DNA of 64,000 nucleotides from Marinobacter sp. (GTDB lineage Bacteria > Pseudomonadota > Gammaproteobacteria > Pseudomonadales > Oleiphilaceae): NCBI GenBank assembly GCA_014359475.1, contig JACIZI010000014.1:1-64000 (forward strand). The letters run 5' to 3'. Position numbers and translations under genes: made by a program. Positions 764 to 29,702 of the stretch are shown here, in pieces. The notes beneath the pieces were generated by a model. It did not search any database and was not told where the DNA came from. It saw nothing but the letters and a program-made list of their open reading frames with translations. How positions within the stretch are numbered: position 1 is the stretch's first letter; each line of letters starts with the position of its first letter.

Positions 764-808
764 CATTCTTTGAGTGTGCCAGGGCGTTGTTTTTGCTATA
801 ATTTAGCT

Positions 809-2638: not shown

Positions 2639-3379
2639 TCAGGCCTTCTCCAGCCATGCATCGTAGTTAGCTGAATGTCCAAAAATCAGTCCTAAAATAA
2701 CAAAGCCAATGATCAAAAATGGCACCTCTCCCCATGCGAACCACGATGCGACCATTACAGCAAACCAGACAGCATATTGTTTCAATTCACTAGCTTCGGT
2801 TTTCTTCACCAGCTGAGCCTTCAGGACTTCGGCTCGTTCGTTAACGCCCTTCAAGTCATCGGCCTGATACTTGCCTCGGGAATTGCGCTTCCCAAGCATT
2901 ACCGCGCGACCACGAAAATTATGGATGGTGAAATGGTGCGTGCCGCTGCCCGTTCCCGATTCAGACCCAGTGGTTTTGTAATACTCCACATCGACAATTC
3001 CATTCGCACCGATCTGCTCTGCACTGTCGACAAGATCCTTCTTTGCTTGCTCCGGTGAGTGCCTGGAAGACCCATGCACAACCCAATCACTGCGTTCCAT
3101 AATCTCCCACCCACGCACGTCGCTGGATTTGGAGGTCATAAACTCGTCAGGGGTCACGTAGGTAAACACCTCAGAGGGATCTACCAACGCACAGTTTCTT
3201 GCCTTATAGCCTTTCGGAGTGGCCTGTTGGTCGAAATCGACGATGGCTTCTTCACAGATATTTGGAATGTGTTCTTTGTTCTTGAACTCGTCCTGGTGAA
3301 AAAAGTAGTCCTTGCCATCATCACCTTTGATGAAACCGTACCGTTTCTCTGGCAGGTATGTTTTTACTATTCCTTTCAT
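2639..3379 (-). CDS. Cold-shock-domain / YbjQ-like / two-TM protein
   Basis: A 246-residue protein with an unusual composite layout. Residues 1-60 are a cold-shock (CSD) domain with the RNP1-like KRYGFIKGDDG and the following DYFFHQDEF. Residues about 95-170 resemble the YbjQ/heavy-metal-binding fold, seen in AEQIGANGIVDVEYYKTT and the later FRGRAVMLGK. Residues about 198-238 form two adjacent hydrophobic segments, so the protein is probably membrane-anchored by its C-terminus, with the nucleic-acid-binding domain in the cytoplasm. It is the last gene of the leftward operon that starts near 27.6 kb, 75 bases after the previous gene. A role in defence is only suggested by location. I do not know this exact architecture from a characterised protein. 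Confidence 0.7.
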   Translation of the reverse strand: MKGIVKTYLPEKRYGFIKGDDGKDYFFHQDEFKNKEHIPNICEEAIVDFDQQATPKGYKARNCALVDPSEVFTYVTPDEFMTSKSSDVRGWEIMERSDWVVHGSSRHSPEQAKKDLVDSAEQIGANGIVDVEYYKTTGSESGTGSGTHHFTIHNFRGRAVMLGKRNSRGKYQADDLKGVNERAEVLKAQLVKKTEASELKQYAVWFAVMVASWFAWGEVPFLIIGFVILGLIFGHSANYDAWLEKA

Positions 3380-3454
3380 TCCGGATCTTCCCTAGCTTCC
3401 AATTACCCGTTGCCCATCTGTTGCTCAAATGCCTGTCGAATAAGCCTCAAACAC

Positions 3455-3790
3455 TCATTCATCACATAACGCGGAAAATTTGCCCTCTGGCAGCCACTCG
3501 ATCGCCAAACGGTTGCCTTGAATCTGTACGACCCCTTGGCCAGCATTAGGCTTGCTATGCTCCGCTCGATACACCAGCAAGGTGTCCAGCAACTCCATCA
3601 AATCCATTTTGAAGCCGGAATCCTTTAATGCATCGTGATCCGCATCCTCAAGCTGCCAACGAGCGTGATCGAGTCGGTTATCATCAGAGTCACTCTGGAA
3701 AAATACTCTCCCTTCCGCAGTACTCTCTGTCAGATACTGTTTCGCCAGTTGGTCTAGCCGGATTTGATCAAAGTTGGCATCGTAGCTCAT
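3455..3790 (-). CDS. Small hypothetical protein in BREX tail
   Basis: A 111-residue acidic protein that I do not recognise. It has no membrane segment, signal peptide or obvious catalytic motif. It seems to have an N-terminal helical part and a short C-terminal beta-rich part (GVVQIQGNRLAIEWLPEGKF). Its ATG overlaps the stop of the upstream PD-(D/E)XK gene as ATGA (3787-3790), so the two are probably translated together. It could be a partner, regulator or immunity protein for that nuclease. This is inference from overlap only. Confidence 0.72.
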   Translation of the reverse strand: MSYDANFDQIRLDQLAKQYLTESTAEGRVFFQSDSDDNRLDHARWQLEDADHDALKDSGFKMDLMELLDTLLVYRAEHSKPNAGQGVVQIQGNRLAIEWLPEGKFSALCDE

Positions 3791-5139
3791 ATCGCGTTTC
3801 CTTTTGATACGGTCGTACTATCAGCACAACCCAAGGTTGTTAGTAGTTGGCCCAGAATTCTTTGCTGTGGGCTGTTGGAAAAGTCGGCCAGGTGAATAAT
3901 GCCCTTATACTCAAGGGGCTCAGCATATGTCACAACCAGCGGAAATATATTCTTTGCCAGTAGTGCCTTTGACTCTAAAAGCTTCAAATCTGGTATCGAC
4001 TCGTAAATAGAAGGATCAGCCTGCTCTGTCAGCAGGCAGCCCACATGGAGCATTTTAGATCCGTAAAACAGCATAAGAACCACCTTTTTGGCCCATGTGC
4101 CGGTCTCCAGTCGATAAAAAGCGCCCCTGTTACGCGTCCCATTACCCGGTCGGAAAAAATTGAACCTGCGCGCGTACAGGAGGCTGGAAGCATCATCCTT
4201 GAAGGTGTTATGGACGAAAGGGTTCAGCAACTCGGCATTTTCCACTCCGATCCTGGTCATATCACCATTACTGACAAACGGTTCGAACAGCTCCTCCAGA
4301 TTGGTTGTCATCGCCTGTTCAAGCCAGCTTGCGTGGATGGCCGGTAACTCGCTGGCCAGTTGGATTGCCTGCTCATGGTGTCGCTTGCCGTCGGCAATGC
4401 CCTCTTCGAGAACATCTTTTAGCGTTTTCACTTTGCTCACATACTCCTTTGTTGCCCGCTCCACCACTGCCTGGTAATCCCGCAACGCCCAAGCGATATG
4501 AGATTGTCGATCAACTGCGTTGGCACATGACTCAAGCCACGTATGAATACTGTCTTGTCCGATACTCTTTCGATAACTGAGATTTTGATAGTGAGCGACT
4601 GGCAGACCGCTGGTGTTGAGCAAACGCGATGTCCGGTGGCAAACGGTCAACCCACCCAAACCGAACGCTGAGGGGGCCTGTCGATTTTTAGTCAGGTAGA
4701 TAAACAGGGTGTCGTCTGCCTGTGCTGAATCCGTGGCTCCAACAGCCTCAAGGTAGCGTGCCACCTGTCTGCGCTGATCCTGCGCATTAAGCTTATTTTC
4801 GATGACGATCTGGCGTTTGCCATCGGTTATCCAGAGATCAATCTGATCCTCTTGGCCATCCGGGCAATGTTCTTTCAGCACGGTTACAGATGTCAGATCC
4901 AACCAATCCTGTCGTCCAACAACTTCCAGGAAAAGTTTGAGAAAACGCGTTCCCTGGTAATGCTTCCCCTTGGGATTCAGCAGTGAATAGATAAACCGGG
5001 TGTGAAGCCGAACTTCGTCATTTACCGCCAGAACCGAGCTGAGCAGATTGAAATCGTTCAATCCTCGTTGTTTTTGTTGGACTTGTTCGTCCTCGAATGC
5101 GTCCAGTGCAGCGAAGAGCTCTTCCCATGCCGAATCCAT
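3787..5139 (-). CDS. PD-(D/E)XK nuclease family protein (PDDEXK_4-like)
   Basis: A 450-residue protein whose N-terminal third matches the PDDEXK_4 type of nuclease fold. After an opening helix (NDEVRLHTRFIYSLLNP) comes EDQIDLWITDGKRQIVIENK, giving the D-...-E-x-K catalytic signature at about residues 97-112, followed by AQDQRRQVARYL, typical of the family. The C-terminal 250 residues have no motif I can name. Members occur often near phage-defence loci but the substrate is usually unknown; DNA cleavage is likely. It is part of the tail after brxL, 78 bases downstream of the 251-residue unknown gene, and is coupled by ATGA to a small unknown gene. It may supply an extra nuclease to the BREX island. 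Confidence 0.8.
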   Translation of the reverse strand: MDSAWEELFAALDAFEDEQVQQKQRGLNDFNLLSSVLAVNDEVRLHTRFIYSLLNPKGKHYQGTRFLKLFLEVVGRQDWLDLTSVTVLKEHCPDGQEDQIDLWITDGKRQIVIENKLNAQDQRRQVARYLEAVGATDSAQADDTLFIYLTKNRQAPSAFGLGGLTVCHRTSRLLNTSGLPVAHYQNLSYRKSIGQDSIHTWLESCANAVDRQSHIAWALRDYQAVVERATKEYVSKVKTLKDVLEEGIADGKRHHEQAIQLASELPAIHASWLEQAMTTNLEELFEPFVSNGDMTRIGVENAELLNPFVHNTFKDDASSLLYARRFNFFRPGNGTRNRGAFYRLETGTWAKKVVLMLFYGSKMLHVGCLLTEQADPSIYESIPDLKLLESKALLAKNIFPLVVTYAEPLEYKGIIHLADFSNSPQQRILGQLLTTLGCADSTTVSKGNAI

Positions 5140-5217
5140 CTTATTTGCCTTGTTCCGTTTCCACCTGATCTTGAGCCGCGCAGCTTTAACAAAGGTGGAG
5201 TGTAGCGAACTGCTAAC

Positions 5218-5973
5218 TCAAACAGACGAATCAAGAGCTTCCAGAAGCGCTGCCCGAGTCCCCTTCAAATCTGGAAGGACATCCTTCTCCGCAAGTAAAG
5301 TTTTGACATCCGATTGAAACCGCCCCAGAAGGGCCGATAGGCCAAATGATTCGGATTCATCATCGATCTGTTCCAGAAAACCTTCAGCCAGAGCGTTAGC
5401 CACCCCTGAAAGGTCGCTGGCAGGATCAATGATGTCTTCAAAGTGTTCTGCCAATACAGCGGAGAGCTCCGATTCTGAGAGCTCAGAAAAGACAACCCCG
5501 TCAGTGACCAGGTGAAATCCCAGTTCATCAGCTCGGTGGGGACCAATTATGCTTATGTCAGGTCCCTGAGCCGCCTCCTGGATCCGCTGGTAGGCAGCAA
5601 GATTAATGTCGTCAATACAGATAGCCCCAACTCCCAGCTCACCATCCTGATCTATTTCACCAAGCTCATCCCGGCTGCAGGCGGTCAGGCAAACCAGAGT
5701 GCGGTCGTCTAACTTGTCCAGCACACCAGTAATTTTACTTCGGATGACGGACTCCATATTGTCCATGAACGGACCTTCTTGCTGACACCAACAAAATTCA
5801 TCCCAAACATGGCGAGCAAAAACATCTTCAAAGACATCGTATGGAGCCACGCTGCGCAGCTCAGCAATAACGGTTTTGACCAGCTTATCCATCTCGGATT
5901 CGCCAGCGGAGGCTGCCGCTGCTTTTAGTCGTTCAAGACCGCCAAAATTCACTTCAACCACATTCTTTGTCAC
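5218..5973 (-). CDS. Hypothetical protein following brxL
   Basis: A 251-residue soluble acidic protein that I do not recognise. The N-terminal half is predicted helical (residues 20-90); the middle contains short hydrophobic strands (RTLVCLTACS, GVGAICIDDI, PDISIIGP); the C-terminal half is again helical and rich in Glu and Leu. No nuclease, ATPase or zinc motif is visible. It begins 25 bases after the brxL stop and so is almost certainly in the same transcript. Its base composition, judged by eye, is a little lower in GC than brxL, like the rest of the tail, which suggests that the tail was added separately. Confidence 0.7.
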   Translation of the reverse strand: MTKNVVEVNFGGLERLKAAAASAGESEMDKLVKTVIAELRSVAPYDVFEDVFARHVWDEFCWCQQEGPFMDNMESVIRSKITGVLDKLDDRTLVCLTACSRDELGEIDQDGELGVGAICIDDINLAAYQRIQEAAQGPDISIIGPHRADELGFHLVTDGVVFSELSESELSAVLAEHFEDIIDPASDLSGVANALAEGFLEQIDDESESFGLSALLGRFQSDVKTLLAEKDVLPDLKGTRAALLEALDSSV

Positions 5974-5998
5974 AGAAATCCCTCCCTGAAAATCACCC

Positions 5999-8044
5999 CT
6001 ACTCCACCATCGCCTTAATCAACGCATCCCGGGCATCAGAGTAAAACTGAATATCAATCTTGGTTGCCATCTCGTCCGACAAATCAAACAGCTGCCTACG
6101 GCAGGCAACGGGCATCAGCAAGGCCGTTGCGCCCTTCTCTACCGCGATCTCGGCAACGGTCACCGGGTTATGCACAGGCTCTACAGAACCGCCCAGGTTG
6201 ATCTCACCCACAATAATCAGGCCGCCTCGAACGCTTTTCTTGAGCAAAGCGGTGCTGAGGGCAATCAATGAGGCCATACCGAGCTTGGCGCCGGATTTGG
6301 AAGCGTCGAAGGCTCGCAGCTGCACGGTGAATTCGTGTTGGCGAGGATCTTTGTCGCCGACCAGTTGGGCCGATCGGGCGTACAGGTTCTGCTCTGCGTA
6401 GCCAATGCTTTCCTTGAAGGCCGGTGGCACGGGTTTATTCAGCACCTTCACACCGGAACCCGGGCCTTCGTTCACCTCGATACGGTAAAGGCCGGGGTGT
6501 TCTTCTCCGGTGCCCGGGGAGATAGACCAGACCTGGCCAGGTTCCAGCGGGTCGTCACCGATACTGTTTTCACTGTGCAGCTCCGGAGTGGAAACGAATT
6601 TTTCCACTCCATCTTCACCCATCACATAACTGAAATGGGTATTCCGGAACTCTGCCGCGCCAATACGTTTCTGCTGCTCTTTTACTCGGCGCCGGGCTTC
6701 CATGGCGATGCGTACCGCCCATTCAATGTCTTCGTCCGGAATCTGGGCCTCTCCCGGGTACAGCAGCTTCAGCAAGCCACTGATGGTCTTGTTCACCGCA
6801 TTGGTGTCCCTCCCGGACAAAGCACCACCGAAGAACACGCGATTTTGAATCACACTGAGCCGGCTCTGGTTGCGAAGCTGGCTCCAGCACTCGGAAAGGA
6901 AGTCACTCACCAGACCAAAATGATTGGTCAGCAGCTCCTTGCTGACTTTGGGCACATCCCAACCTGGCAAGAAAGCATGGATACGGTCCATGAAGGCGGT
7001 ATCGTCCTTCATCTCCGGTGGCATAGGGCCAAACAAGTGGCCAATGCGCTGCTGGTGCTCCACATCCACATCGAAGTTGCCCACCAGCACAATACTGCCG
7101 TCCGCACGGATGTTCTCCTTGCCACGACTGAACTCCCCGGACTCCATATAGCCCTTCATGATGTTCACGCCGTCTTTCTGGTCGAAAGAGATACCGGAGA
7201 CTTCATCGAAGCAGACAACATCGTACTGACAGACCAAACCACGCTGACCGTTCGAGTTATTCACAAACATCTTGGCGACGGTCGCCTTGCCACCTGAAAT
7301 CAGATGGGCGTAGGGAGACACCTGCTGGAACAGGTGACTCTTGCCGGTTCCTCGGGGACCAAGCTCCACCAGGTTATAGTTGCGCTCAACGAACGGCACC
7401 ATGCGCAGCAGCATGGCATCGACCTGCCGCTCAGACAGGCCTTCAATCTCGATACCGGTAGAACGCAGCAGGAAGGCTTTCCATTCATCCGTGGTAAAGG
7501 CTTTCCGAGCCTCGGCCAGGCTATCCAGCACATCCCGCTTGGAGAGCTGAATCTCCCGCAAAGACTCCACTCCAAATGGCCGGCCTTTGTTTTCCTGGGC
7601 AATGGCTGCATCGTAGTTCAGGGTGATCTCGGCGTAGAAGCCACCGGTAAGCATTCGCTCATGCTCATTCACCAACTCTGATGAGATACGAACATCCGTC
7701 AGGCGAAGGCTGGGCAGTGTTGCGATGTAACTATCGGTCTTTGCATCCAGGCGAGCGGTAATCAGATCAATGATTTTGACCTCACCGTTCTCCCTGGCCC
7801 GGGCCTTGAACAACTCCTCTTCACCCGCCTTTACCGTGCGGGATTTGAGCTGCCGCTGAACAATCTCCAGCCCTTCATCAATTTCTTCCTGGTCGGTGCT
7901 TGCGCAGTAGCGCCCCAGCAGAAACTCCACCACGTAGGTAGGCACCGGAAACTGGCGGCTGAAAGTTCGCACCAGATCTTTACGTACCAGGTAACCATCC
8001 AGTGCGGCTACCGCTTTGTTATCAATCTCATCCAATACCATCAC
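5999..8044 (-). CDS. brxL: BREX Lon protease-like protein BrxL
   Basis: The sixth core BREX protein, 681 residues. An N-terminal domain leads into an AAA+ module with Walker A GPRGTGKSH (about residue 238) and Walker B region YDVVCFDEVSG (about 282), then a C-terminal Lon-protease-like domain (about 575-680) with GMASLIALSTALLKK and GEINLGGSVEPV. In the family BrxL forms DNA-binding ring assemblies and is needed for phage restriction; it is diagnostic of type I BREX. Whether the Lon Ser-Lys dyad is intact cannot be decided by eye: the lysine usually found after the GG turn is not obvious. Its start overlaps the pglZ stop as ATGA (8041-8044). Confidence 0.94.
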   Translation of the reverse strand: MMVLDEIDNKAVAALDGYLVRKDLVRTFSRQFPVPTYVVEFLLGRYCASTDQEEIDEGLEIVQRQLKSRTVKAGEEELFKARARENGEVKIIDLITARLDAKTDSYIATLPSLRLTDVRISSELVNEHERMLTGGFYAEITLNYDAAIAQENKGRPFGVESLREIQLSKRDVLDSLAEARKAFTTDEWKAFLLRSTGIEIEGLSERQVDAMLLRMVPFVERNYNLVELGPRGTGKSHLFQQVSPYAHLISGGKATVAKMFVNNSNGQRGLVCQYDVVCFDEVSGISFDQKDGVNIMKGYMESGEFSRGKENIRADGSIVLVGNFDVDVEHQQRIGHLFGPMPPEMKDDTAFMDRIHAFLPGWDVPKVSKELLTNHFGLVSDFLSECWSQLRNQSRLSVIQNRVFFGGALSGRDTNAVNKTISGLLKLLYPGEAQIPDEDIEWAVRIAMEARRRVKEQQKRIGAAEFRNTHFSYVMGEDGVEKFVSTPELHSENSIGDDPLEPGQVWSISPGTGEEHPGLYRIEVNEGPGSGVKVLNKPVPPAFKESIGYAEQNLYARSAQLVGDKDPRQHEFTVQLRAFDASKSGAKLGMASLIALSTALLKKSVRGGLIIVGEINLGGSVEPVHNPVTVAEIAVEKGATALLMPVACRRQLFDLSDEMATKIDIQFYSDARDALIKAMVE

Positions 8045-10383
8045 ACATCTCCCCCACCAATCCTTGTGTCGGTCTGGGCTACCAGAGCCCCGTTATCATC
8101 CAGCAACACCACCACGGCGTTCTGGCCTTCCATGTCTTCGTCTTCCACCACTACCGATGCTCTGCCGTCTTCCTTCAACGGCTTGGTGCCGAGCACGACA
8201 CTGCTGGACGCTTCCCCGGCACGGGTTCGGATATCCAGAGTCAGGCATTTGTACTGACCTTCCACGGCTACCGTGCAGCGAAGCCCCTTCCAGACCAGAT
8301 CGGTGAACTCAATCGTAGCCTGAGCGCCTGCCCCCCCTGTTACGACCAACTGCAAGGTCAGGCACTCCTGCAGGCTCAGGCCGCCGTGGGCATACTCCTC
8401 ACCGTTCTTGTAACAGCTGACACCATCGGCCAACGCGAAATAGTGGCTCGGGTTCCAATACCAGGGAAACACCCGCTCCTGGGTGTCTGCACCAGGCTTG
8501 AGCGCAGCACAGCGGCCCCATTTGCTGTCGGCGAGTACGCTTGGCAACTGGGTTTTGGGCAAGCCTCCGGGCAACAACAGCCAACCATGGTCGGTAACCA
8601 CCCGAACCCGCTTCCAGCCGGCAGCCAGTAATTCGGTAATCCGGGTCTGAACCTCCTGCAGCAGGTTGTCCAGGTGTTTGGCCAGCTTCCAGCCCCGGTC
8701 GTGGCCTTCATGGTCGATATCGCCGAACTCGCACCAGGCAAAGCCCTGGCCATCACCATTGTCCGTGCGGTCCAGAACACGCCAACCGGCCTCTTTCAAC
8801 AGCTTCTTGTGATGATAGCCACCCTTCAGAGACTGGCCTGTCTCGGCCACAGCGGGTTCGAAGTCAGCGCTCGCGTCGTCACCTTTAATCTTGTCCCGTA
8901 CCGGAGATACAGCCACCTTGCCCGTTGCCGTAACACTGGGCAGCGCCGTCCACACCGGAGTTTCAGAGATCTCCAGACCTGCGGCTTCCAGGCGTTCAAC
9001 CAGACGTTTACCGGTATCAAAACGCAAACCATCCACAAACAGCACGCAATCGCCCTGCTCAGCCGGGAATTGTGGAGCATTCTCACAAGAGCCGCCGGGG
9101 TAACTGGCACCGTCCACATGCTTTTGCAGATAACGGGCCGAATCTTCCATCCAGGGCAGATAAATAGCCCTGATGGCTGTGGTGACGGCATTCAGGTCAT
9201 CGTTGCTGGTTACTTCAGCCAGCGCCCGCATCACGCTGTCATCCACCTTCCAGCCAGTACTGGCATAGCCATTGGCAAGATCGGTGACCGTGCCGGCCGC
9301 AAGAGCCGTTTTCGCGTGTTCTGCCATGGTCGCCAGGTGCTTCAGTGCCAACGCGAGGGATGCCTCGCCCAACTCCGCCCATACCAGTGAGCGGCGGCCA
9401 CCGTGGGCTTGCTCCAGGTCTTTAAGCTGCGCTATGGCCTTGTGAGCTGGCATATTACTCAGCGCTAACAGATCCCGGCGTAAATGTTCTTCCTGGCTCT
9501 GGTTCCACTGCGGCCAGCCACCGGCCACGGATTCATCCGCGAACAAGTCGAAAGACGGCGGCTGACACTTGCGGATCTGGTCCGGAATGTGTGGATAACG
9601 ATTAGGCGCTTCGCAAAACCGCTCCCACACCGCCTGCCAGGGGCCCTCATGATTGGCCAGTTTGTTACATCCGGCCAGAATACCGTCCTGCTGAGGATTG
9701 AACGCCAGCTGGGACTGACACACCGAAACAAAGGCCTGCCATTCGTTCTCGCCCCGGGCAGCCTGAAACGCCTCGCCCTGGTCCAGCCACAACAACAGGT
9801 CCCGGGTGGGGTCACCACCGGTCAACAGGGTATTGAAGTAGTCTTTATCCAGCCGTTTGCCTTTGAGCAGCTCAACTTCCTCACCCAGCAAACGGTACAG
9901 CGCTAACTGCATTGCGTGGCGGCTTTCGCTGTCCTGAGCAACATCCAGGCCCAGGCCGCCCTGGTCGGACTTCAGATAGGCCAGAATGGTCCAGTCCTTG
10001 GCATTCACCTGAGACCAGATCACGCCCCGGTACTGCAGCTCTGCCAGAGGCTTCAACTCATCCGGGCAGCTCTCCACCGCCCGCAAATCCTGGCGGCTGA
10101 CGCCGGGCAGATACAGAATCGGTGCTTTGCCTTCCGGTAACTCAACATCTTCCGCGAACCCGGCAATGGCATATCGAAGCCAGATTGCCGGGCCGGTGCG
10201 TTTCTCCGGGGCGTAATCACCCAGTACCATCAGCTCGGGCAGCTCAGCTTGCAGCACCGGAATTACGGCTTCCCACTGGCGATCACGGTCTGGCCACAGA
10301 ATGCAGGCGGGGGCCACCTGTATGTCCGGGTTGTAAATGCCGGCATCACGGATCGCCTTCAGGAGATAGTCCAGAACTCTCAT
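8041..10383 (-). CDS. pglZ: BREX phosphatase-fold protein PglZ (probably type B)
   Basis: A 780-residue alkaline-phosphatase-superfamily protein and BREX core component. The metal-binding core appears as LFVDGLRFDTGKRL (about residue 445) and VVTDHGWLLLPGG (about 595). The opening MRVLDYLLKAIRDAG and the long helical N-terminal half match what NCBI names BREX-1 PglZ type B; the assignment to type B is from memory. The C-terminus is beta-rich. In BREX systems PglZ is needed for both methylation and defence, although its substrate is unsettled. The ATG is coupled by ATGA to the upstream HNH gene (10380-10383) and the stop to brxL. It is separated from pglX by five inserted genes, which is unusual. 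Confidence 0.92.
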   Translation of the reverse strand: MRVLDYLLKAIRDAGIYNPDIQVAPACILWPDRDRQWEAVIPVLQAELPELMVLGDYAPEKRTGPAIWLRYAIAGFAEDVELPEGKAPILYLPGVSRQDLRAVESCPDELKPLAELQYRGVIWSQVNAKDWTILAYLKSDQGGLGLDVAQDSESRHAMQLALYRLLGEEVELLKGKRLDKDYFNTLLTGGDPTRDLLLWLDQGEAFQAARGENEWQAFVSVCQSQLAFNPQQDGILAGCNKLANHEGPWQAVWERFCEAPNRYPHIPDQIRKCQPPSFDLFADESVAGGWPQWNQSQEEHLRRDLLALSNMPAHKAIAQLKDLEQAHGGRRSLVWAELGEASLALALKHLATMAEHAKTALAAGTVTDLANGYASTGWKVDDSVMRALAEVTSNDDLNAVTTAIRAIYLPWMEDSARYLQKHVDGASYPGGSCENAPQFPAEQGDCVLFVDGLRFDTGKRLVERLEAAGLEISETPVWTALPSVTATGKVAVSPVRDKIKGDDASADFEPAVAETGQSLKGGYHHKKLLKEAGWRVLDRTDNGDGQGFAWCEFGDIDHEGHDRGWKLAKHLDNLLQEVQTRITELLAAGWKRVRVVTDHGWLLLPGGLPKTQLPSVLADSKWGRCAALKPGADTQERVFPWYWNPSHYFALADGVSCYKNGEEYAHGGLSLQECLTLQLVVTGGAGAQATIEFTDLVWKGLRCTVAVEGQYKCLTLDIRTRAGEASSSVVLGTKPLKEDGRASVVVEDEDMEGQNAVVVLLDDNGALVAQTDTRIGGGDV

Positions 10384-12259: not shown

Positions 12260-12330
12260 GTTGATCCCTCTCTGGATTCTCTGATGGCCTGTTTCTGTAC
12301 CAAAGCCAGATGATAATCAAAAACCCTCAT
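12256..12330 (-). CDS. 24-codon mini-ORF linking two embedded defence modules
   Basis: A tiny frame that exactly fills the gap between the DUF4276 gene and the PtuA-like ATPase gene. Its ATG (12330-12328) overlaps the upstream TGA as ATGA, and its own TGA (12258-12256) overlaps the downstream ATG as ATGA. A purine-rich AGAGGTGG lies just upstream. The peptide starts MRVFDYHLALVQKQ and has no further feature. Its first residues resemble the start of PglZ in this operon (MRVLDYLLKAI), so it could be the remnant of a copied pglZ start left by recombination. Alternatively it is a translated linker that keeps ribosomes coupled, or a real small protein. The double overlap makes chance less likely, but expression is unproven. 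Confidence 0.45.
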   Translation of the reverse strand: MRVFDYHLALVQKQAIRESREGST

Positions 12331-20744: not shown

Positions 20745-20820
20745 GTTCTTTTACTTCCCCAATCCTTAAAGTGATGCCACGGCTCCGGCTTTGGTGCCGT
20801 TAAAGCGCTTTTCCTGGCAC

Positions 20821-20890
20821 ATCGGTACGCACCGATATGCGCACTTTATCCATTAAACGCATAGTATGCGCATAGACATTTATCTATGCG
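20821..20890 (-). promoter_or_regulatory. Cluster of inverted repeats upstream of pglX
   Basis: The 150-base gap between the AlbA-type gene and pglX contains three inverted repeats in 70 bases. They are ATCGGT-ACGC-ACCGAT at 20821-20836; CGCATA-G-TATGCG at 20858-20870; and CGCATAGA with TCTATGCG at 20869-20876 and 20883-20890. The last two share the CGCATA half-site and touch each other. This looks like an operator for a DNA-binding regulator controlling the pglX part of the operon. I could not place a convincing promoter. Confidence 0.5.
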
Positions 20891-20894
20891 ACTT

Positions 20895-22616
20895 TCAATG
20901 CTCACGCGCATTGCTGTATTCATAGCGCGCCCAGCGCCGCTCCCCCACCTTCTGGAGGCCGGCGTTCTCCTGCATCAGCTCCTGCATCAGGCGCCGGGCC
21001 TGATTGCGGTCAAAGCGGGTAATTTGCCGGATGTCCTTGTTGCTCAGGCCCGGCTCGTTACGACGGGCACGCTCCATCAGAATGCTGAGTACGCGGGTTT
21101 TGGCGGCTTCCCAGTCAATGCGGCGTCGGGCTTCGCCCTGGCCGTCCTCGGCCAACCGATTGTAGAGCTCGGGCTGCATGCACCAGTAAGCGCCCCGCCC
21201 GGTGCCACCGTGTTCGATGTAACCGGCCGATTCCATTGTGGATAACTTTTCGCGCATCTCCGCTTCGCCACGCTGGCACAGGGTGGCTGCGGTGTTGGTG
21301 TCTATTTCCGGATGCTGGAGCAGGTATTGCAACAGCATCAGTTCATCCACGCCCAGGTTACGCCCGTGCTCGCTTTCCTCCGCCACAAACAGGCGGAAGG
21401 TGGCGTTCAGCTCCCGCTTGGGAAAGCTGACTTGCACCGAGTCACCAATCTCCCGGATCTGAGGCGGTTCTTTACCTTCCATCAGCAGGGCAGAGAACAT
21501 GCGGTTAATGCCCAGGTTGCTGCGGTTTACCAGGCGCAGCCGGGTAAGGGCTTCCACCAGTAAAGGGTTTCGGGCAGCGGGCTGGTGGTGAAGGATGTTG
21601 TTGGGGGTAATGCCGGCGATAAAGCCCCCGTTATTGCTGATTTCCAGCCGGTCAGCATACAGCTTGACCATCACCGGCCCGGCTATGCGCAAGTCCGCAT
21701 GGCAGAAGGCGTTCATCAGGGCTTCACGCACCGCAATTTCCGGCCAGGTGCAGTATTCGTAATGGAACATGCCCTGTTTGTAGGTGGTGATGGGGTTAAA
21801 GGGCACCAGCAGTTCTTCTATGCGCTGAACGGACAAAGGCAAAGCGCTGACCCGATCCTCCCGGATGCCGTAGTCGATATCCGAGGTCATTTGCAGGAAA
21901 GTCCAGTTGTGGCCGGGCAAGTGTTCCCGGATGGCCGCCTCGGTGCCGGCCAGCAGAATAGCGGCCCTGGTGAGTTTGCCCTGTTTGATCAGCCCGAGAG
22001 TGGACAGAAGTTCAGTGTTCGATAGCCTCAGCAAGTCTTCCGGCGCACGTTCCTTGCTGGCCTGGTTGCGCAGTGCTTCCAACGCTGTGGCGGACAGCAG
22101 TGAGTTATCCACAGGAGCGACGGCTTCTGCGGTGTAGTCCGTTTCGCCGGTTTCGACACTGATCTTCCGGCGCAGTGTGCCGGTCAGCGGAACGCAGTCT
22201 TTACTGACGCGGATAGTCCCTCGCCCTGCGGTGTCGGTGTACGGCGGCATACCGGGGTGAATCTGCATCAACAGCAACCGGCCGGTGCCTTCCGGTACGG
22301 CAAGCTCTTCGAATACCGGCATGATCTTCGGGTCGGTCTGGTCGTAGACGGCCTTTTTCAGCAGGTTTGAGTCGATTTCCGGTGGCACACCCAGAATGGC
22401 GCTACTTCGGCCCTGTATTCGGTCGGCCACGCCAAATACCACGGTACCGCCACCACCATTGGCCATGCACACGGCCATCTGAACCACGGTTTTTACCGCG
22501 TTGTCCCGACTTTTCAGATCCCACTGTTTGAAATCGAGGTCCTGGTCTTCCAGTTCGTCGGCTATGCAGTGGTCCAGCTCTGGCAACAGAGCCTCGATGT
22601 TGGCGGCGGTTCGCAT
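20895..22616 (-). CDS. AlbA_2/Schlafen-type ATP-binding protein within BREX
   Basis: A 573-residue protein with an N-terminal AlbA_2 (Schlafen-fold) nucleic-acid-binding domain at about residues 20-140: DLDFKQW, then MAVCMANGGGGTVVFGVAD. A HATPase_c_4-like region follows near residues 300-400 (LMNAFCHADLR, LEISNNGGF, RNPLLVEALTRL, NRSNLGINRMF) and a winged-helix C-terminus (KDIRQITRFDRNQARRLM). Proteins of this type are annotated as ATP-dependent transcription regulators or RecG-like. The start is 17 bases after the brxC stop, so it belongs to the brxABC unit. It may regulate the operon or act as an additional nucleic-acid sensor; the neighbouring inverted repeats are possible targets. Confidence 0.82.
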   Translation of the reverse strand: MRTAANIEALLPELDHCIADELEDQDLDFKQWDLKSRDNAVKTVVQMAVCMANGGGGTVVFGVADRIQGRSSAILGVPPEIDSNLLKKAVYDQTDPKIMPVFEELAVPEGTGRLLLMQIHPGMPPYTDTAGRGTIRVSKDCVPLTGTLRRKISVETGETDYTAEAVAPVDNSLLSATALEALRNQASKERAPEDLLRLSNTELLSTLGLIKQGKLTRAAILLAGTEAAIREHLPGHNWTFLQMTSDIDYGIREDRVSALPLSVQRIEELLVPFNPITTYKQGMFHYEYCTWPEIAVREALMNAFCHADLRIAGPVMVKLYADRLEISNNGGFIAGITPNNILHHQPAARNPLLVEALTRLRLVNRSNLGINRMFSALLMEGKEPPQIREIGDSVQVSFPKRELNATFRLFVAEESEHGRNLGVDELMLLQYLLQHPEIDTNTAATLCQRGEAEMREKLSTMESAGYIEHGGTGRGAYWCMQPELYNRLAEDGQGEARRRIDWEAAKTRVLSILMERARRNEPGLSNKDIRQITRFDRNQARRLMQELMQENAGLQKVGERRWARYEYSNAREH

Positions 22617-22633
22617 GATGTCTGTCGCGCTCT

Positions 22634-25600
22634 TTATTTGACGGAAATCGGACCTTTTTCCAGGGCCGTTTTAAGCTGATCTTTCACTTCTTCCGCCCAG
22701 GCATCAACGTCTGCCTCGGTTTTCAGCGTGCGGCGTGGTACCGATACAAACTGGATTTCCGGCTCGCACAACTCCGCTGCCGCGACTGCTACGTTGTCAA
22801 AACGGCTGGGTAGCGCGGCTACCCTGTCTGCGAACATGCCCAGTGAGCATTGGTCCAGGGTGTTCAGTACTTCATCGGTAGACTGAACGGCCACTTTCGG
22901 CTGATCAGCCAGGGTCAGCTTCTGTTCGGACAGTAACTGGTTACGCTGCTCTGGCTCCAGCTGCTTCCAGTTTGCGTCTGCCTCCAGGCGTTTCATGCCC
23001 TGTTCGTGCCGGGCCTGGTAGTCCTGATTCAGGGTGTTCAAGGCTTCGCGCAGGCTTTGGGTCAGGCTGGTGATCAACGGGTTGATCGGGTCCGGCTCTT
23101 CCAGCAGTTGGCGCTGTTGTTCGATGGTGTCTACCTGGGCACGGTACACCTCGGCATCGGCCAGAGCGGATGCGTGGTTTACCAGGCGTTTGAGAACCAT
23201 CCAGCTAGGCCAGCGCTGCTGGATTTGTTCTGCCAGTTTCTCCCAATGCTCAATGCTTTGAACGAGTTGTTCCCGGCAGTTATAAAGGGCCAGCAGTTGC
23301 TCGTTACCCGTTGTCAGGCGGATATCGTCAAGGAAGCGGGTGTCCGGGCGTTCGGGTTTGGGTGCTTCGCCACCGGCTTTATTGGCCAGGTCACTGACTT
23401 TCTGCAGGAACGATGGCACGTGCGCCAGTTCTTCGCCCTGCTTGGCGGATACACCCACTTTCTGGAGCACTTTGCGGATCTGGATACGCTGCGGTGTGGA
23501 GACATTGGCGGACTCCACTTTGAACATGGTTTTACCAATGCTCTTGCGCTCCAGTGCGGAAGGCTCGATGGGTTGCCCACGGTCGTCCTGGGCCCGGATG
23601 ATTCCGGCCACCAGCAGTACCTGAAGGCCGCCATCCACCGCATCCCGGGACCAGCCGAAATCTTTCCCTTCAAAGTGAGCGCGTATGTCTCCACCTTTTT
23701 TGCCACCGGCAATGAATCCCAGAACGGCTTTACAGACCGGATTCTTGCCAGGCTCACCATCGTCACCGACGGCTTTGAGAGCATCCGGTGCGCCTGTCTT
23801 CGCTTTTTCGTAGGCTTTTTGCCAACCGCTGTGGTCAGCAATATGGAAGTTGGGGTACAGGCGTTGCAGCGAGTTGTTTGCCGCTTCCAGCACCATTTCC
23901 TGCAAATTGTTACCGAGGATTTCATTGCCACCACCCTGGAAGACCCGGGCGCCGGAGAAGGCTTCGCTGAGCAATTCCCGGATTTTGCCTTCGGCGGTCT
24001 GTTTGGTGGTTTCCATGGCCGCTTTGGCTTCGGTGCCTTCCGGCGTGTTGGGGGAGCCACGCTTATCCAGAGTGGCGCTGGCCGCTTTGTAATCGATCAG
24101 GTGATGGCGCAGGTCATCCGCTGAACGCTTGGGGATAAACACAAAAACGGTAGGCGACTGGTTCCCGGCTTGCCGTGCATCGGCCCGAACGGAGTTTTCA
24201 TCACTGCTCCAGCCATCACGTACCCACACACAGATACGCTCGTTGGCATCCGCCGGTAGCTGGGCATCAAACACCGGGTAGATATCCCGGGTAACCTTCG
24301 CGTCGCCCTGCATCAGCGACAGTTTGCGCGCGACCTCACCGAACATGCGGCGGATGCGGTCGTCCCGTTCTGCGTGAATGCGATGGGCTTCATTGGAGAG
24401 CGCGGAACGCTGGCTGAGGAATTCGTCGGTCCAGGCGGAGCTCTCTTCAGTCTGGATGCGGTATTCCTCGCCCACTTTCATCAGCAATTCGCAATGATCC
24501 AGCAGGCCAGGCAGCTTGCTGCGCAGGCTGCTGCTACCACTGGACAGATCTTCTACCAGCAGATCTGCCAGTGAATCGACGTTCGCGCGAATGCCGATCT
24601 CATTGTTCTGGCCGCCCAGCTTGTTGATCAGAAACACCAGGCCGCAGGCGCGGGCCATCAGGCGCTGGTCTTCCGTGCCTTTTATCCAGCTCATGGTTTT
24701 TTCATGAACCTTGCGGGGCAGAATTCGGGCCTGCAGCAGTTTGTCTGCGGAATCGAAGTAAAGGTAATCCGCCGGTACCACATGGCCGAGTGGATCATCC
24801 AGATTGGTCTGGATGACTTTGTGAATCATGCTGAGCTGGTTACGCAGCTGACTGTCGGTGCCGGTCTGGTCCAGTATTCTCAGGGTGTTTTCCCAAAAGC
24901 GACGACGCACCGGCAAGATCGGGTAGTCCTGGGGGAAGTAAGGTAGGTCATCCTGCCGGTGGCCAATGGTTGTGCCCGCCAGGTGCCGGGAAATTTCGCC
25001 CAGGTTGGTTTGAAGAACCTGATCAATCGGCCCTTTGGCTTCGGGCTTTTTGGCGAGAATGACTTGCCGGATAACAGCATCGACATCGGCATCAGACAGC
25101 TCAACACGGATAGTGAAGCGCCCTTCGAGTTTCTTCAGATTGCTCGTGCCGGTTACCGCTGTCTGGCCAGTGCCAATGAAGAGCAGCTTGCCACCGAAGT
25201 TTTTACAGCAGGCCTCGACCGCTTCCTGCACTGCAATAGAGCGTTGGCTGTCTTCACCAATGAACTGCTGAACTTCGTCCAGTACGATCAGGGTAAGCGG
25301 GAATTTGCCATCTGTGGTCAATGCCTGGCGAATGGCCTTGAGCATGTCGTCGCTGGAAATGTCCTGAACGAATGGATACAGGTTGTTCAGGGTTTCCACG
25401 CAGGACGCCGGTGATGTAAACAGTGCCGGCTTTGCCTGTACCAGGGCTTCGTGCAGGCCTTCGGCCACGTAGAAGTTATCCAACTCTTCCTGCCAGTCGT
25501 AGCCGTTGGATTCGACACTCTGGCGTACCTGGTCGTAAATGCCTTCGTGCTTCAACCACATCACAAACCGGGCGACCGGGTACTGTTCCGGCAGCCCTGC

Positions 25601-26071
25601 CGATTTGAACAGAATACGCAGTAGCGCAAGCCGTACACTACCGTTCGCGCCGGAGCCCAGGGTTCCGGATGCCGCATGCAAGCCACCGTGGCGCTTGGCT
25701 TGTACGCTCAGCTCTTTGAGGTGTTCACTCACGCCTTGTGGCAGTTTGGCGATGCCCCGGGCAGTAGCGCCGTCTTCAAACTCTGCATCTACCCAAAGCG
25801 CCCTCAGCATCTTGACCAGATGGGATTTACCAGAACCGTAGAACCCGCTGACCCACACCGCCGGCTGTTGAGCCTGTTCGATGTTCTTCAGGTAGGTTTC
25901 CAGAATGTGGGACATGCCTTTTTCGTACTGGCCGTCACACACGAAAGTCTCCAGCTCGTAACGGAGTACCGCCAGGGCATGGCTTGTGGTTTCGTCGTTA
26001 ACACTGGCCACACCTTCGTTGACCAGTTTGCGGGTGGTCGGATCTTTCTGATAAATCTCACGATTCTTCAT
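22634..26071 (-). CDS. brxC: BREX ATPase BrxC
   Basis: A P-loop protein of 1145 residues and a core component of all BREX types (also called PglY in some). The opening MKNREIYQKDPTTRKLVNEG is typical, Walker A is SGFYGSGKSHLVKML (about residue 80), and Walker B is TLIVLDEVQQFIG (about 265). The C-terminal half is largely helical, with coiled-coil stretches near residues 920-1060. BrxC is thought to use ATP to assemble the BREX complex on DNA. I chose ATG 26071, which follows AAGAGG at 6 bases, over a TTG two codons upstream. The gap to brxB is 15 bases. Confidence 0.95.
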   Translation of the reverse strand: MKNREIYQKDPTTRKLVNEGVASVNDETTSHALAVLRYELETFVCDGQYEKGMSHILETYLKNIEQAQQPAVWVSGFYGSGKSHLVKMLRALWVDAEFEDGATARGIAKLPQGVSEHLKELSVQAKRHGGLHAASGTLGSGANGSVRLALLRILFKSAGLPEQYPVARFVMWLKHEGIYDQVRQSVESNGYDWQEELDNFYVAEGLHEALVQAKPALFTSPASCVETLNNLYPFVQDISSDDMLKAIRQALTTDGKFPLTLIVLDEVQQFIGEDSQRSIAVQEAVEACCKNFGGKLLFIGTGQTAVTGTSNLKKLEGRFTIRVELSDADVDAVIRQVILAKKPEAKGPIDQVLQTNLGEISRHLAGTTIGHRQDDLPYFPQDYPILPVRRRFWENTLRILDQTGTDSQLRNQLSMIHKVIQTNLDDPLGHVVPADYLYFDSADKLLQARILPRKVHEKTMSWIKGTEDQRLMARACGLVFLINKLGGQNNEIGIRANVDSLADLLVEDLSSGSSSLRSKLPGLLDHCELLMKVGEEYRIQTEESSAWTDEFLSQRSALSNEAHRIHAERDDRIRRMFGEVARKLSLMQGDAKVTRDIYPVFDAQLPADANERICVWVRDGWSSDENSVRADARQAGNQSPTVFVFIPKRSADDLRHHLIDYKAASATLDKRGSPNTPEGTEAKAAMETTKQTAEGKIRELLSEAFSGARVFQGGGNEILGNNLQEMVLEAANNSLQRLYPNFHIADHSGWQKAYEKAKTGAPDALKAVGDDGEPGKNPVCKAVLGFIAGGKKGGDIRAHFEGKDFGWSRDAVDGGLQVLLVAGIIRAQDDRGQPIEPSALERKSIGKTMFKVESANVSTPQRIQIRKVLQKVGVSAKQGEELAHVPSFLQKVSDLANKAGGEAPKPERPDTRFLDDIRLTTGNEQLLALYNCREQLVQSIEHWEKLAEQIQQRWPSWMVLKRLVNHASALADAEVYRAQVDTIEQQRQLLEEPDPINPLITSLTQSLREALNTLNQDYQARHEQGMKRLEADANWKQLEPEQRNQLLSEQKLTLADQPKVAVQSTDEVLNTLDQCSLGMFADRVAALPSRFDNVAVAAAELCEPEIQFVSVPRRTLKTEADVDAWAEEVKDQLKTALEKGPISVK

Positions 26072-26086
26072 GAACAACCTCTTTCC

Positions 26087-26635
26087 TTAATCCTTGTCTG
26101 CGGTTATCGGTACTGCGAGATAGTTCCACCCGTCGTAACCGTCCAATAACCGGTAATTGTTGTTTTCATAGCTGCCGGGAAACAGGACCAACAGCCGCCC
26201 CTCAACCAGGGGAGCCAACTTATCCACAACGTCTTTGACCTTGAGAAAACCGAAAAGCGAGCCAACACCCTGGACAGCCACTACGGTGTTGTCGTTTGCA
26301 TTTGTTTCTTTGAGAACCCGCTCGAACTCGCTCACGATATAGTCCAGATACTTGGGCAAGACCGTGGCCAGCAGGTGCGGCTTCTGGAAATAGCTCTTTG
26401 CGTACCGCTGGGTAGCCAGCCAGCCTGCAAAGGTGTTGGTCAAATCAAACAGAACCCATTCGTGACCCGCCTGCCGGGTAACAATTTCGAATTCGTCTGC
26501 CCGGGCTCTGAGCCAGCGCTCTTCGTTTTCGTTGTAAACGCAGAAAACCACCCGCTGGGCTGCGGCGGCATCATCCCTCCAGGGGATAGCAATGTGCCGT
26601 CCGTACGATTGAATCAGGCGCTTAACCCTGCTCAC
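26087..26635 (-). CDS. brxB: BREX protein BrxB (DUF1788)
   Basis: A 182-residue protein of the DUF1788 family, of typical length. The conserved C-terminal segment LVLFPGSYENNNYRLLDGYD is present, preceded by VQGVGSLFGFLKV and LTNTFAGWLA. BrxB is an essential type I BREX component without known catalytic activity. The start is GTG at 26635, with AGGAGT seven bases upstream, and overlaps the 3' end of brxA by 14 bases. Confidence 0.94.
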   Translation of the reverse strand: MSRVKRLIQSYGRHIAIPWRDDAAAAQRVVFCVYNENEERWLRARADEFEIVTRQAGHEWVLFDLTNTFAGWLATQRYAKSYFQKPHLLATVLPKYLDYIVSEFERVLKETNANDNTVVAVQGVGSLFGFLKVKDVVDKLAPLVEGRLLVLFPGSYENNNYRLLDGYDGWNYLAVPITADKD

Positions 26636-27410
26636 GCAACCACTCCTGTTCCTGCTGATTGATCAGGTTGGGGAAAAGCACTTCGATCACATCCCCCACC
26701 CGCTTGTAGGTTATCCAGCCCCTGCGTGACGCCTGCTCGGCCAATTCGATGGTCTTTTCCCGAGAGCAGTCCAGCAGCTTGGTGTATTCCGTTCTGAACA
26801 GGCCTTGTCCGCGCGCACCGGCCAGGTAGCCCAGCAGCAGTGCGTAGGCCGCGCTACCTGCCGTGGGTGCCGCTTGGTTGCGAACTTTCTTGTTTCGCCC
26901 GGTGAGATGCCCGGATTTGGTCCAGCTGGAGTTGATGTTCTGCGCTGTGGATTTCAAAGTAGCTTTGCTGAACCGACCCGGCTCCAGGCTATCGATCAGT
27001 TCCTCTAGCGACTCACGGGTAATGACTGAGCCTTCGGGAGCCTTGAGAATCATTGGTGCGCTGGCACGGAAAATAGAGTCCCTGGCGTAGGTAGCCAGCA
27101 GCGCCAGCATCGGGCGACCTGCTTCATCTCGCTGCCAGAAATAAAGCAGAGCACGGAATAGCACATGGGCTGTGTCCAGAGAATAAAGCTCAGCCAGGTG
27201 CTTGTAGGTCAGGAGTCGGGTTCTACCAGAGCGTTTGCCCAGACAGTTGTCTTCCTCAATCGCACGTAGGTAATCAGCCTTTGTAGCGTCCGCACGGTTT
27301 ACGTAATCGAGCAGAGCTGTGAGCTCGTCCAGCATCATGGTGCGGGAGCTGTGAGTGCCGCCACGCTCAAACCGGAACCCGAAGCGGGCAAGTTGTTTCT
27401 CGTCAGGCAT
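26622..27410 (-). CDS. brxA: BREX protein BrxA (DUF1819)
   Basis: A 262-residue protein of the DUF1819 family. The conserved block NCLGKRSGRTRLLTYKHLAE followed by LYSLD is present, as is the long helical middle region (RALLYFWQRDEAGRPMLALL). BrxA is a DNA-binding component of type I BREX. The ATG at 27410 overlaps the end of the upstream helix-turn-helix gene by eight bases; an upstream ATG frame to 27455 only shadows that gene. It is the first of the six BREX core genes. Confidence 0.92.
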   Translation of the reverse strand: MPDEKQLARFGFRFERGGTHSSRTMMLDELTALLDYVNRADATKADYLRAIEEDNCLGKRSGRTRLLTYKHLAELYSLDTAHVLFRALLYFWQRDEAGRPMLALLATYARDSIFRASAPMILKAPEGSVITRESLEELIDSLEPGRFSKATLKSTAQNINSSWTKSGHLTGRNKKVRNQAAPTAGSAAYALLLGYLAGARGQGLFRTEYTKLLDCSREKTIELAEQASRRGWITYKRVGDVIEVLFPNLINQQEQEWLREQG

Positions 27411-27606
27411 TGGCGTTATTCCCGTCGCTGGCACCGCCGCTGCGTACCCAGGCATCTACTTCATCCTTTTTGAACTTCCAGGCTCTGCCGACACGGTGGG
27501 CGGGCATTGCTTGCCTATCAATCCACCGGTAAATCGTATCGCCACTTACGCCAAGGTATTTCGCGATTTCACTCACTGACAACCATCGGTCGTCCAGTTC
27601 CGTCAT
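27403..27606 (-). CDS. Small excisionase-type helix-turn-helix protein leading the BREX operon
   Basis: A 67-residue DNA-binding protein of the HTH_17 / excisionase (MerR-like) type: WLSVSEIAKYLGVSGDTIYRWI, then MPAHRVGRAWKFKKDEVDAWV. It is the first gene after the promoter at 27682-27710, has a good ribosome-binding site (GGGGAG), and overlaps brxA by eight bases. It lacks the WYL domain of the BrxR regulators known from other BREX loci, so if it is the local regulator it is a different kind. It could also help excise the island. Its binding site is unknown; the palindromes upstream are candidates. Confidence 0.85.
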   Translation of the reverse strand: MTELDDRWLSVSEIAKYLGVSGDTIYRWIDRQAMPAHRVGRAWKFKKDEVDAWVRSGGASDGNNANA

Positions 27607-27851: not shown

Positions 27852-27869
27852 ATTTCGCTGGGCGGGTTT

Positions 27870-29690: not shown

Positions 29691-29702
29691 GCGGTGGCAG
29701 GC

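Follow-up and report, generated by a model that had tools for sequence, protein, structure and literature searches.

Tandem defence cassettes between pglX and pglZ in a Type I BREX operon, and a short hybrid joint between them suggestive of recombination

How do additional defence genes come to stand inside a BREX operon, and do they work with BREX or alongside it? That defence systems nest within one another is known, and defence genes embedded in BREX have already been published, while their arrival and retention in an operon are left unexplained in such text of the literature as we covered. The window (the whole 64,000-nt stretch of Marinobacter sp. DNA analysed here) contains a Type I BREX operon that carries stacked defence cargo between pglX and pglZ, and the new element is a view of how this stack formed.

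The entire gene block lies on the minus strand, running from 27606 to 2639. As the initial annotation had claimed, all six BREX-1 core genes are present; their frames are open, they follow the BREX order on one strand, and the best PADLOC match of each protein covers nearly the full length of its model. The first gene of the operon (27403..27606), read from the sequence as encoding an excisionase-like HTH protein, has tblastn matches upstream of brxA in three related loci (L155, L161 and L162). It is followed by brxA (26622..27410, start read at 27410; PADLOC BrxA, E 3e-112), brxB (26087..26635; Pfam and PADLOC BrxB) and brxC (22634..26077; NCBIfam BREX_BrxC, 981 bits against a cut-off of 400). 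The predicted adenine methyltransferase gene pglX (brxX; 17304..20744) matches PADLOC PglX almost end to end with 1758 bits, and scores 360 bits in NCBIfam, under the 500-bit cut-off; the middle part of the protein differs among close relatives in an identity profile, and its motif IV is NVPY, the reading found in 43 of 44 scored loci. The last two core genes are pglZ of type 1B (8041..10383; BREX_PglZ_1_B, NF033450, 970 bits against a cut-off of 400) and brxL (5999..8044; Pfam BrxL_ATPase and BrxL_N, with TIGR02653 above cut-off). Related pglZ genes were found at E 1e-80 on 7 plasmids, all below 60% identity, and a search for a second end of the island, in the form of a copy of the mnmE end, found none.

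The five genes reported as inserted between pglX and pglZ were recovered, and they fall into two putative cassettes. Cassette A begins with g6 (14059..17304), which encodes 1081 amino acids with a HEPN-like N-terminus, recognised from relatives and from a DUF4145 match below the Pfam cut-off, and a long C-terminus of helical repeats. The RNase motif of HEPN proteins is Rx4-6H, and RNFRNYIH in g6 can be read by eye as R-x6-H, in an N-terminus that is poorly modelled. The AlphaFold model is mostly helical and of low confidence (mean pLDDT 62), and its only Foldseek matches were large proteins of helical repeats, at TM-scores of about 0.2 at most; given such weak matches to such a model, no function can be assigned from the fold. 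Neither g6 nor its alignment matched the sequences of solved structures, and a plasmid relative gave one meaningless match (E 0.82). The g6 family comprises 6 loci; one relative (L133) lies on a viral contig.

The remainder of cassette A is a HEC-01 pair. HEC-01A (g7, 12977..14062; PADLOC E 3e-157) is an ATPase of the AAA_21/OLD type, and it is paired, as HEC-01 is defined, with the DUF4276 protein HEC-01B (g8, 12327..12980; Pfam, 193 bits), whose start was chosen by script at the ATG at 12980, overlapping g7 by 4 nt, in an open reading frame that extends at its longest from 13016. Cassette B is a Septu pair, consisting of the ATPase PtuA (g9, 10976..12259; PADLOC E 3e-185) and the HNH nuclease PtuB (10380..10979; E 2e-71; start likewise chosen by script, longest frame from 11015). 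The order PtuA then PtuB with overlapping genes identifies type I Septu. Type II (retron Ec78) was rejected: a Pfam scan of 17 proteins showed no reverse transcriptase, and the retron PtuA and PtuB models score far under cut-off on these proteins. Both pairs are complete and lie between pglX and pglZ, and so represent genetically embedded defence.

Extra genes had also been reported after brxC and brxL, and they are there: one Schlafen-like gene after brxC, and four genes after brxL. The former, g4 (20895..22616), combines Schlafen/AlbA_2 with HATPase_c_4 (Pfam), and matches of its type above 100 bits occur between brxC and pglX in 15 of the 46 loci with both ends visible. The latter are g13 (5218..5973, 251 aa, no function assigned), which also follows brxL in the related locus L084 at 95% amino acid identity; g14 (3787..5139), a PDDEXK_4 protein and PDC-S26 candidate by Pfam and PADLOC; g15 (3455..3790, 111 aa, no function assigned); and g16 (2639..3379), with a Pfam cold-shock domain. 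Most of the extra genes match defence or candidate defence families, in agreement with their initial description as defence genes.

The inserted genes are translationally fitted into the operon, as had been proposed, and this is borne out by the overlaps at their junctions. The description of the junctions as mostly ATGA overlaps holds from pglX to brxL, where 5 of 7 are 4-nt overlaps, and fails for the whole block, with 6 of 16. The pglX-g6 junction is a 1-nt overlap (TAATG), and HEC-01B and PtuA are separated by a 67-nt gap. Wider gaps lie before pglX (150 nt) and after brxL (78 and 75 nt). Promoter-like and terminator-like sites, counted with both strands pooled, showed no excess over chance except in one region; between 2400 and 15000 there are 21 terminator-like sites against 12.3 expected (sd 3.4). 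The coding-strand terminator-like sites listed all lie within genes and none in gaps. The gap between g4 and pglX (20745..20894) contains repeated CGCATAG/CTATGCG, seen in the sequence and in an alignment of 11 loci; a strict form of this pattern is present in 5 of the 15 loci that carry g4 and in 0 of the 31 that lack it, which is only suggestive of a mark of g4.

We compared the pglX-pglZ interval across related BREX loci, where it is a slot for interchangeable, predicted defence modules. The first sample comprised the window and 66 of 79 fetched loci, the other 13 being dropped since the pglX end and pglZ start could not both be defined (the pglZ start of L086 was adjusted by hand). The slot was loaded in 64 of these 67 loci and empty in 3. 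It was also loaded in 12 of 15 loci of a second sample, drawn from 20 places after dropping 3 repeats of first-sample loci and 2 without pglX. Cargo was called by a custom script that omitted frames below 70 aa, and clusters were built by single linkage, each named from one representative. Schlafen-like cargo occurs in 9 slots. The comparison suggested by the initial annotation, whether the inserts come and go as units, gave a positive answer: PtuA and PtuB occurred together in one slot in 14 of 14 loci, and HEC-01B was accompanied by its ATPase in 8 of 8. The cargo does not track the backbone, since HEC-01A is 84% identical to that of the window in L057 and 44% in L056, both with 66% pglZ identity.

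Two of these relatives carry the window's putative cassettes separately. In L066 the slot reads pglX-[g6, HEC-01A, HEC-01B]-pglZ, without Septu, and its DNA is 92% identical to the window over 6 kb (cassette A and the final kb of pglX) and 76% over pglZ-brxL. In L084 it reads pglX-[PtuA, PtuB]-pglZ, without g6-HEC-01, and the identity is 95% from the joint through g13. Cassettes A and B, apart in these loci, are in tandem in the window. Across the sample, pglX ends track the first cassette when the pglX body is allowed for, the observed value being reached in 3 of 2000 label permutations; in the control against the last cassette it was reached in 588 of 2000, and the pglZ start tracks the last cassette weakly (165 of 2000). 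These tests left out 8 of the 67 loci, in which the slot was empty or the pglX reading short, and after that 2 that were nearly identical to others.

The gap where the two cassettes meet is a hybrid joint (12256..12330, minus strand), identified by sequence comparison, in which a pglZ 5' remnant is followed by a pglX 3' remnant within an open frame of 24 aa that has ATGA overlaps at both ends. Its pglX-type half matches the pglX end of L084 with a score of 63, against 26 for the best of 20 shuffles and 25 for a mid-pglX control. Among 67 pglX ends L084 is the best match, the next scoring 29 and the window's own ranking 59th; the latter end is identical to L066 at 60 of 62 nt and to L084 at 33 of 51. 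The pglZ-type half shares 17 of 20 nt with the pglZ of L066, and when the 471 ATGA sites of the window are compared, pglZ itself is the only one to match that gene better; this half is short, and alone it failed an alignment test (28 against a shuffle maximum of 24). As read from these matches, the short hybrid scar indicates that the cassettes were joined by recombination.

Counting the window, 10 of the 64 loaded slots hold remnants of core-gene ends, at 11 joints in all. In the window, L043 (twice) and L081 both halves could be recognised; every other joint showed just one. Among 25 automatically collected cargo-cargo gaps of at least 30 nt, to which stretches from L043 (twice), L081 and L087 were added by hand, remnants scored 57 to 142. 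The remnant is absent in 17 of the 25, and many modules adjoin without any gap, so that stacking must often be traceless or follow another route. The second sample had one pglZ remnant (L165; 1 of 12 loaded slots), and pglX-end queries gave no match in its slots. When pglX ends were matched for 6 of the 9 joints that contain one, the best match was the locus whose first cassette follows the joint in only 3 of the 6.

We propose that cassettes were probably swapped and stacked through recombination within the core genes on either side, and that they act as separate, co-expressed defences. Exchange would occur by homologous recombination within the flanking pglX and pglZ. In stacking, one side would be homologous, and the other would fuse a slot's pglZ start with the pglX end from a different slot through a few matching bases. 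Because the pglX end and pglZ start overlap the cassette genes, such an event would keep its own start and stop and the coupling of the row. Each cassette would then be an independent putative defence expressed with BREX: Septu as a nuclease driven by its ATPase, HEC-01 as a putative ATPase-effector pair of a candidate family, and g6, from its weak family match, perhaps as an RNase-like effector joined to a helical sensor. Together they would cover phages that escape or inhibit BREX.

A different route to the same arrangement, for which we see an appreciable though lesser chance, is that the slot was duplicated in tandem and one copy then replaced, or that a circle bearing a pglX end, a cassette and a pglZ start was inserted again. 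In L043 the two joints agree at every one of 379 consecutive nt and diverge only toward both ends, as if one joint had been copied and reused, and the joint of L064 has its best match in its own pglX end. The window's joint instead carries an L084-type pglX end and not its own, and import of a foreign cassette therefore fits better than plain duplication.

The initial annotation had proposed a composite defence machine whose parts may share phage signals or back each other up. A single machine, with inserted proteins working physically or functionally with BREX and kept for that, would agree with the common orientation and coupling of the cargo genes, with their likely co-expression, and with the presence of the same modules in the pglX-pglZ interval of distant BREX loci. 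Against this, the modules are found alone as well as in many different combinations, and are missing altogether from the empty slots; for that reason each is most simply viewed as self-contained. In Salmonella StySA/BREX, a two-gene PARIS insert (ATPase-DUF4435) lies at the same place, and its deletion is described as leaving methylation about unchanged (PMC9009780, PMC11341690). We therefore regard one integrated machine as unlikely, and the proposal is not supported in this form. The general notion of backup effectors inside BREX is in print (PMC12839542, in its available text).

A general defence island open to any insertion, with the joint a chance likeness, is very unlikely. Extra genes do occur between brxC and pglX and downstream of brxL, but 167 of 168 called cargo genes point in the BREX direction (by a caller that weighted minus-strand frames 0.7), and the remnants exceed shuffles (at most 35) and mid-gene controls (at most 27) in the 25 gaps. 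Reversed and mid-pglZ queries found no remnants in the slots, and the single match to a mid-pglX query was marginal (E 8e-4) and fell in the slot of the window itself. That the 24-aa frame is a genuine small gene (a leader peptide or Septu partner) is also very unlikely: it does form an open frame with ATGA at both ends, and open frames likewise span the joints of L043 (both of 169 aa), L044 and L064, but its counterpart before ptuA in L084 (47 of 59 nt) is a true pglX end, Septu follows other cargo without such a leader in L041, L055 and L099, and the remnants of L081 and L070 have broken frames.

Several known systems come close to the present locus. The Salmonella insert resembles the present cargo as a two-gene defence insert in the same Type I BREX interval; it differs in being one module of another family, with internal transcription starts and, in the text available, no joint or stacking described. 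Those starts were mapped in PMC9009780, which places brxA-B-C-pglX and insert-pglZ-(brxL) on separate transcripts and portrays a locus that was first acquired and later embellished, whereas a promoter upstream of brxA is said to drive the whole island in PMC11341690. The BREX of pEFER also holds an additional defence gene, BrxU (GmrSD), that gives complementary protection, though located between brxC and pglX (PMC8565348). BREX loci with OLD-ATPase dyads (with HNH or Toprim nucleases), Schlafen-kinase-wHTH proteins, HEPN and PD-(D/E)XK nucleases are listed in PMC12839542; these are the cargo classes seen here, except DUF4276, which its available text does not name. That paper treats BREX auxiliaries as retained effectors, and its main text, as available, contains neither "recombination" nor "scar". 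Guest modules between the genes of another system are likewise known from genetically embedded and Hma-embedded defences (Payne et al. 2024, a preprint, as cited in PMC12255303, PMC12988326 and PMC12137116), with Septu within Hma as an example (PMC12255303); the host there is Hma, not BREX. In the available text of the BREX literature covered, preprints aside, pglZ/pglX joints or slot scars are not described.

Integron gene cassettes are stacked, exchangeable and in one orientation. The slot cargo shares these traits, but its examined borders are core-gene pieces or short overlaps, and the one tyrosine recombinase of the window scores 57 bits against an integron integrase cut-off of 265 and is thus not classed as one. 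We tentatively suggest, as a conceivable extension, that the slot could be a recombinase-free cassette array, in which pglZ'-'pglX joints are often kept as in-frame linkers and then offer homology for further cassettes.

The window's joint, together with the cassettes standing apart in two relatives, gives a readable record of one stacking event, and makes the mechanism of stacking experimentally testable. It also suggests a rule for searching, since cassette borders are marked by remnants of core-gene ends, which may flag new defence modules. If the array reading is true, defence operons would expand and be rearranged through ordinary recombination, with their own core genes as guides.

A complete Type I BREX operon lies on the minus strand of the window (27606-2639), with brxA, brxB, brxC, pglX, a type 1B pglZ and brxL all found alongside extra genes, which bears out the BREX-1 core described in the initial annotation. 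The five genes reported there between pglX and pglZ are also present on this strand: g6 (1081 aa), HEC-01A and HEC-01B (an AAA_21/OLD-type ATPase and a DUF4276 protein, previously listed as an ATPase-DUF4276 pair), and the Septu genes PtuA and PtuB (the former ATPase-HNH pair). A gene for a Schlafen/AlbA_2 protein carrying a HATPase_c_4 domain (g4) separates brxC from pglX, and brxL is followed by genes for a 251-aa unknown protein (g13), a PDDEXK_4 protein (PADLOC candidate PDC-S26), a 111-aa unknown protein and a cold-shock-domain protein. No coding-strand terminator-like site was found inside any intergenic gap of the block. The nearest loci to this BREX are from Marinobacter; a search of 24 other genomes from the same genus found no pglZ of its kind, and one BrxC above the family cut-off was found in the window's own genome.

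The comparison of pglX-pglZ intervals across related loci that the initial annotation had proposed recovered the inserted genes as two separate cassettes. Locus L066 (Methylonatrum kenyense) reads pglX-g6-HEC-01A-HEC-01B-pglZ without Septu, and matches the window at 92% DNA identity over 6 kb (the last kb of pglX plus the cassette) and at 76% in pglZ-brxL. Locus L084 (a Marinobacter assembly) reads pglX-PtuA-PtuB-pglZ without g6 and HEC-01, and is 95% identical to the window from the joint between the cassettes through g13. The window is a tandem of the L066-type and L084-type cassettes.

The joint consists of 67 nt between HEC-01B and PtuA that are pglZ-like at their beginning and pglX-like at their end. 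Its pglX half aligns to the L084 pglX end with a score of 63 (20 block shuffles reached at most 26, and mid-pglX sequences 25); among 67 pglX ends L084 ranked first, the next scored 29, and the window's own end came 59th. The pglZ half is short, sharing 17/20 nt with the L066 pglZ start; alone it fails the alignment test (28 vs 24 for shuffles), and among 471 ATGA sites of the window it is outdone by pglZ itself only. The joint can be read as a 24-codon open frame (MRVFDYHLALVQKQAIRESREGST), running from an ATG that overlaps the HEC-01B stop to a stop that overlaps the PtuA start. The true pglX end of the window, before g6, matches L066 at 60/62 nt and L084 at 33/51; each cassette therefore retains the pglX end of the locus type that holds it alone.

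To place this stack among relatives, 79 loci with a related pglZ were fetched, and the interval was definable in 66 of them, or 67 with the window. This sample was picked by likeness to the window's pglZ and includes many metagenome assemblies, and cargo exceeding the 10-kb flank would escape detection. The slot was loaded in 64 of the 67 loci and empty in three (L038, L089, L097). Of 168 cargo genes called, 167 run in the BREX direction, the single exception being a doubtful call in L065. By our pairing rule, a single module occupies 25 of the 64 loaded slots, two occupy 27 and three or more occupy 12; 4-nt overlaps occur at the first slot junction in 34 and at the last in 24. Counted in loci from gene clusters, and named after cluster representatives, the modules were GmrSD/BrxU-like (24), Septu (14), Ppl-like ATPase (11), HEC-01-type ATPase (10, eight with HEC-01B), Schlafen-like (9), AbiU/AIPR (8), the g6 family (6) and DUF3644 (6), the rarer ones including HEC-02 and a TIR protein. 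A second sample, from a PglZ family search of whole genomes, gave 20 places above the cut-off, of which three duplicated the first set and two were without pglX; of the remaining 15, 12 were loaded and three empty. Several of the loaded slots share first-sample modules (Septu, GmrSD-like, Ppl-like, HEC-01); identity of their pglZ to the nearest among ten pglZ from the first sample is 38-58%.

Remnants of core-gene ends were found in other slots as well. When pglZ starts and pglX ends were used as protein queries against the 64 loaded slots (threshold E 1e-3), nine loci matched (the window, L043, L044, L070, L077, L081, L086, L087 and L100). Reversed and mid-pglZ queries gave no matches in these slots, and mid-pglX queries gave one marginal match (E 8e-4), in the window's slot. 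DNA alignment added L064. In an automatic list of cargo-cargo gaps of at least 30 nt, 8 of 25 held remnants (scores 57-142; shuffles at most 35, mid-gene sequences at most 27), and four further stretches, picked manually in L043 (two), L081 and L087, had best scores of 99-312 against a control maximum of 32. The total is 11 joints in 10 loci, window included and leaving out a weak pglZ-like match in L087 (35% identity). All 11 are ordered as the stacking model predicts, any pglZ remnant coming after a cassette and any pglX remnant before one; the picture is less clean in L077 and L100, where the remnant runs into the end of the preceding called cassette. The window's joint, the two in L043 and the one in L081 each have both halves recognisable. 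L044 and L064 have open joint frames, ATGA-coupled at both ends, with the pglX half alone recognised; those of L081 and L070 are broken, which shows that joints do not always keep an open frame. At L070:6960-7200, a pglZ start remnant adjoining HEC-01B contains in-frame stops and is a decaying scar. The 12 loaded second-sample slots gave one pglZ remnant (L165, scored without a shuffle control) and no matches to pglX-end queries.

The last 18 PglX residues (57 loci) were more similar among loci sharing the first cassette, after correction for the preceding PglX body, a value attained by 3 of 2000 label permutations. The controls, pglX end against last cassette and pglZ start against first cassette, gave 588 and 450 of 2000; the model also predicts that the pglZ start goes with the last cassette, for which the result was weak (165/2000). 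Nine joints have a pglX end, and for six of these the best match was sought: it had the expected first cassette in three (the window, the second L043 joint, L044) and lacked it in three (the first L043 joint, L064, L087). Within pglX, the middle (window 18800-18400) is 55-61% identical to L084 DNA, flanked by stretches at 92-98% (before) and 82-92% (after), in an operon region mostly above 90%. This is as expected if a target-recognition part had been swapped, and such divergence between similar flanks suggests that specificity and cargo may change together, in a single exchanged tract. In L108, pglX is covered about twice by tblastn (2286 residues), and this locus may carry two copies.

We propose that cassettes are probably swapped or added by recombination. 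The long and similar pglX and pglZ genes would serve as the sites of homologous recombination through which a cassette enters; if one side were homologous and the other joined through a few matching bases, the cassette would be added, not swapped, and the joint would stay behind. Since the pglX stop and pglZ start overlap neighbouring cassette genes, the joint would supply a start and a stop and could keep the row of genes translated. An identical scar would be left if the slot were duplicated in tandem and one copy later replaced, or if a circular intermediate were inserted, and L043 and L064 may suit these routes better. L043 has a 169-aa open frame at each of two cassette borders, in which foreign sequence lies between PglZ residues 1-67 and the PglX end; the two are identical across 379 consecutive nt, with their differences (35/510 nt) toward both ends.

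Septu and HEC-01 are recognised families, and each cassette would be a self-contained defence under shared expression. For g6 (window 14059-17304) we can only guess at a role, from an N-terminus that is weakly DUF4145/HEPN-like and a helical body that follows it. Its C-terminal body (~880 aa) recurs on plasmids with different N-termini, an HTH in two plasmid proteins (Rhizobium and Shewanella), and relatives in L016 and L017 have another N-terminal sequence, as judged by eye. This resembles sensor-plus-swappable-effector proteins, and the body may be a sensor whose partner domains can be exchanged.

The g4-pglX gap (window 20745-20894) is conserved in close relatives, with repeated CGCATAG/CTATGCG; regulation may well act at this gap, which perhaps contains an internal promoter or an operator that controls g4. 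Upstream of the operon (window 27835-27889) are two perfect TTTCACATGTGAAA palindromes with starts 41 nt apart (chance expectation 0.03, one mismatch tolerated), likely the operator of some regulator. An IS66-type transposase gene (window 770-2452) lies just past the operon 3' end, and AAA_25, RepC and tyrosine recombinase genes (window 29694-32954) adjoin the 3' end of mnmE, with yidC, dnaA, dnaN and gyrB close by. The BREX block seems to lie in an island located at mnmE; a second end of this island was looked for and not found.

In published work, PARIS sits between pglX and pglZ in Salmonella BREX (PMC9009780, PMC11341690), BrxU is inserted between brxC and pglX (PMC8565348), auxiliary nucleases in BREX have been catalogued (PMC12839542), and the concept of genetically embedded defences has been put forward (Payne et al. 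2024, as cited elsewhere). The literature searched did not yield an account of stacked cassettes separated by hybrid joints made from core genes. The arrangement is therefore of a known kind and the record of its building is new, the joint of the window being a testable trace of how such an arrangement gets built.
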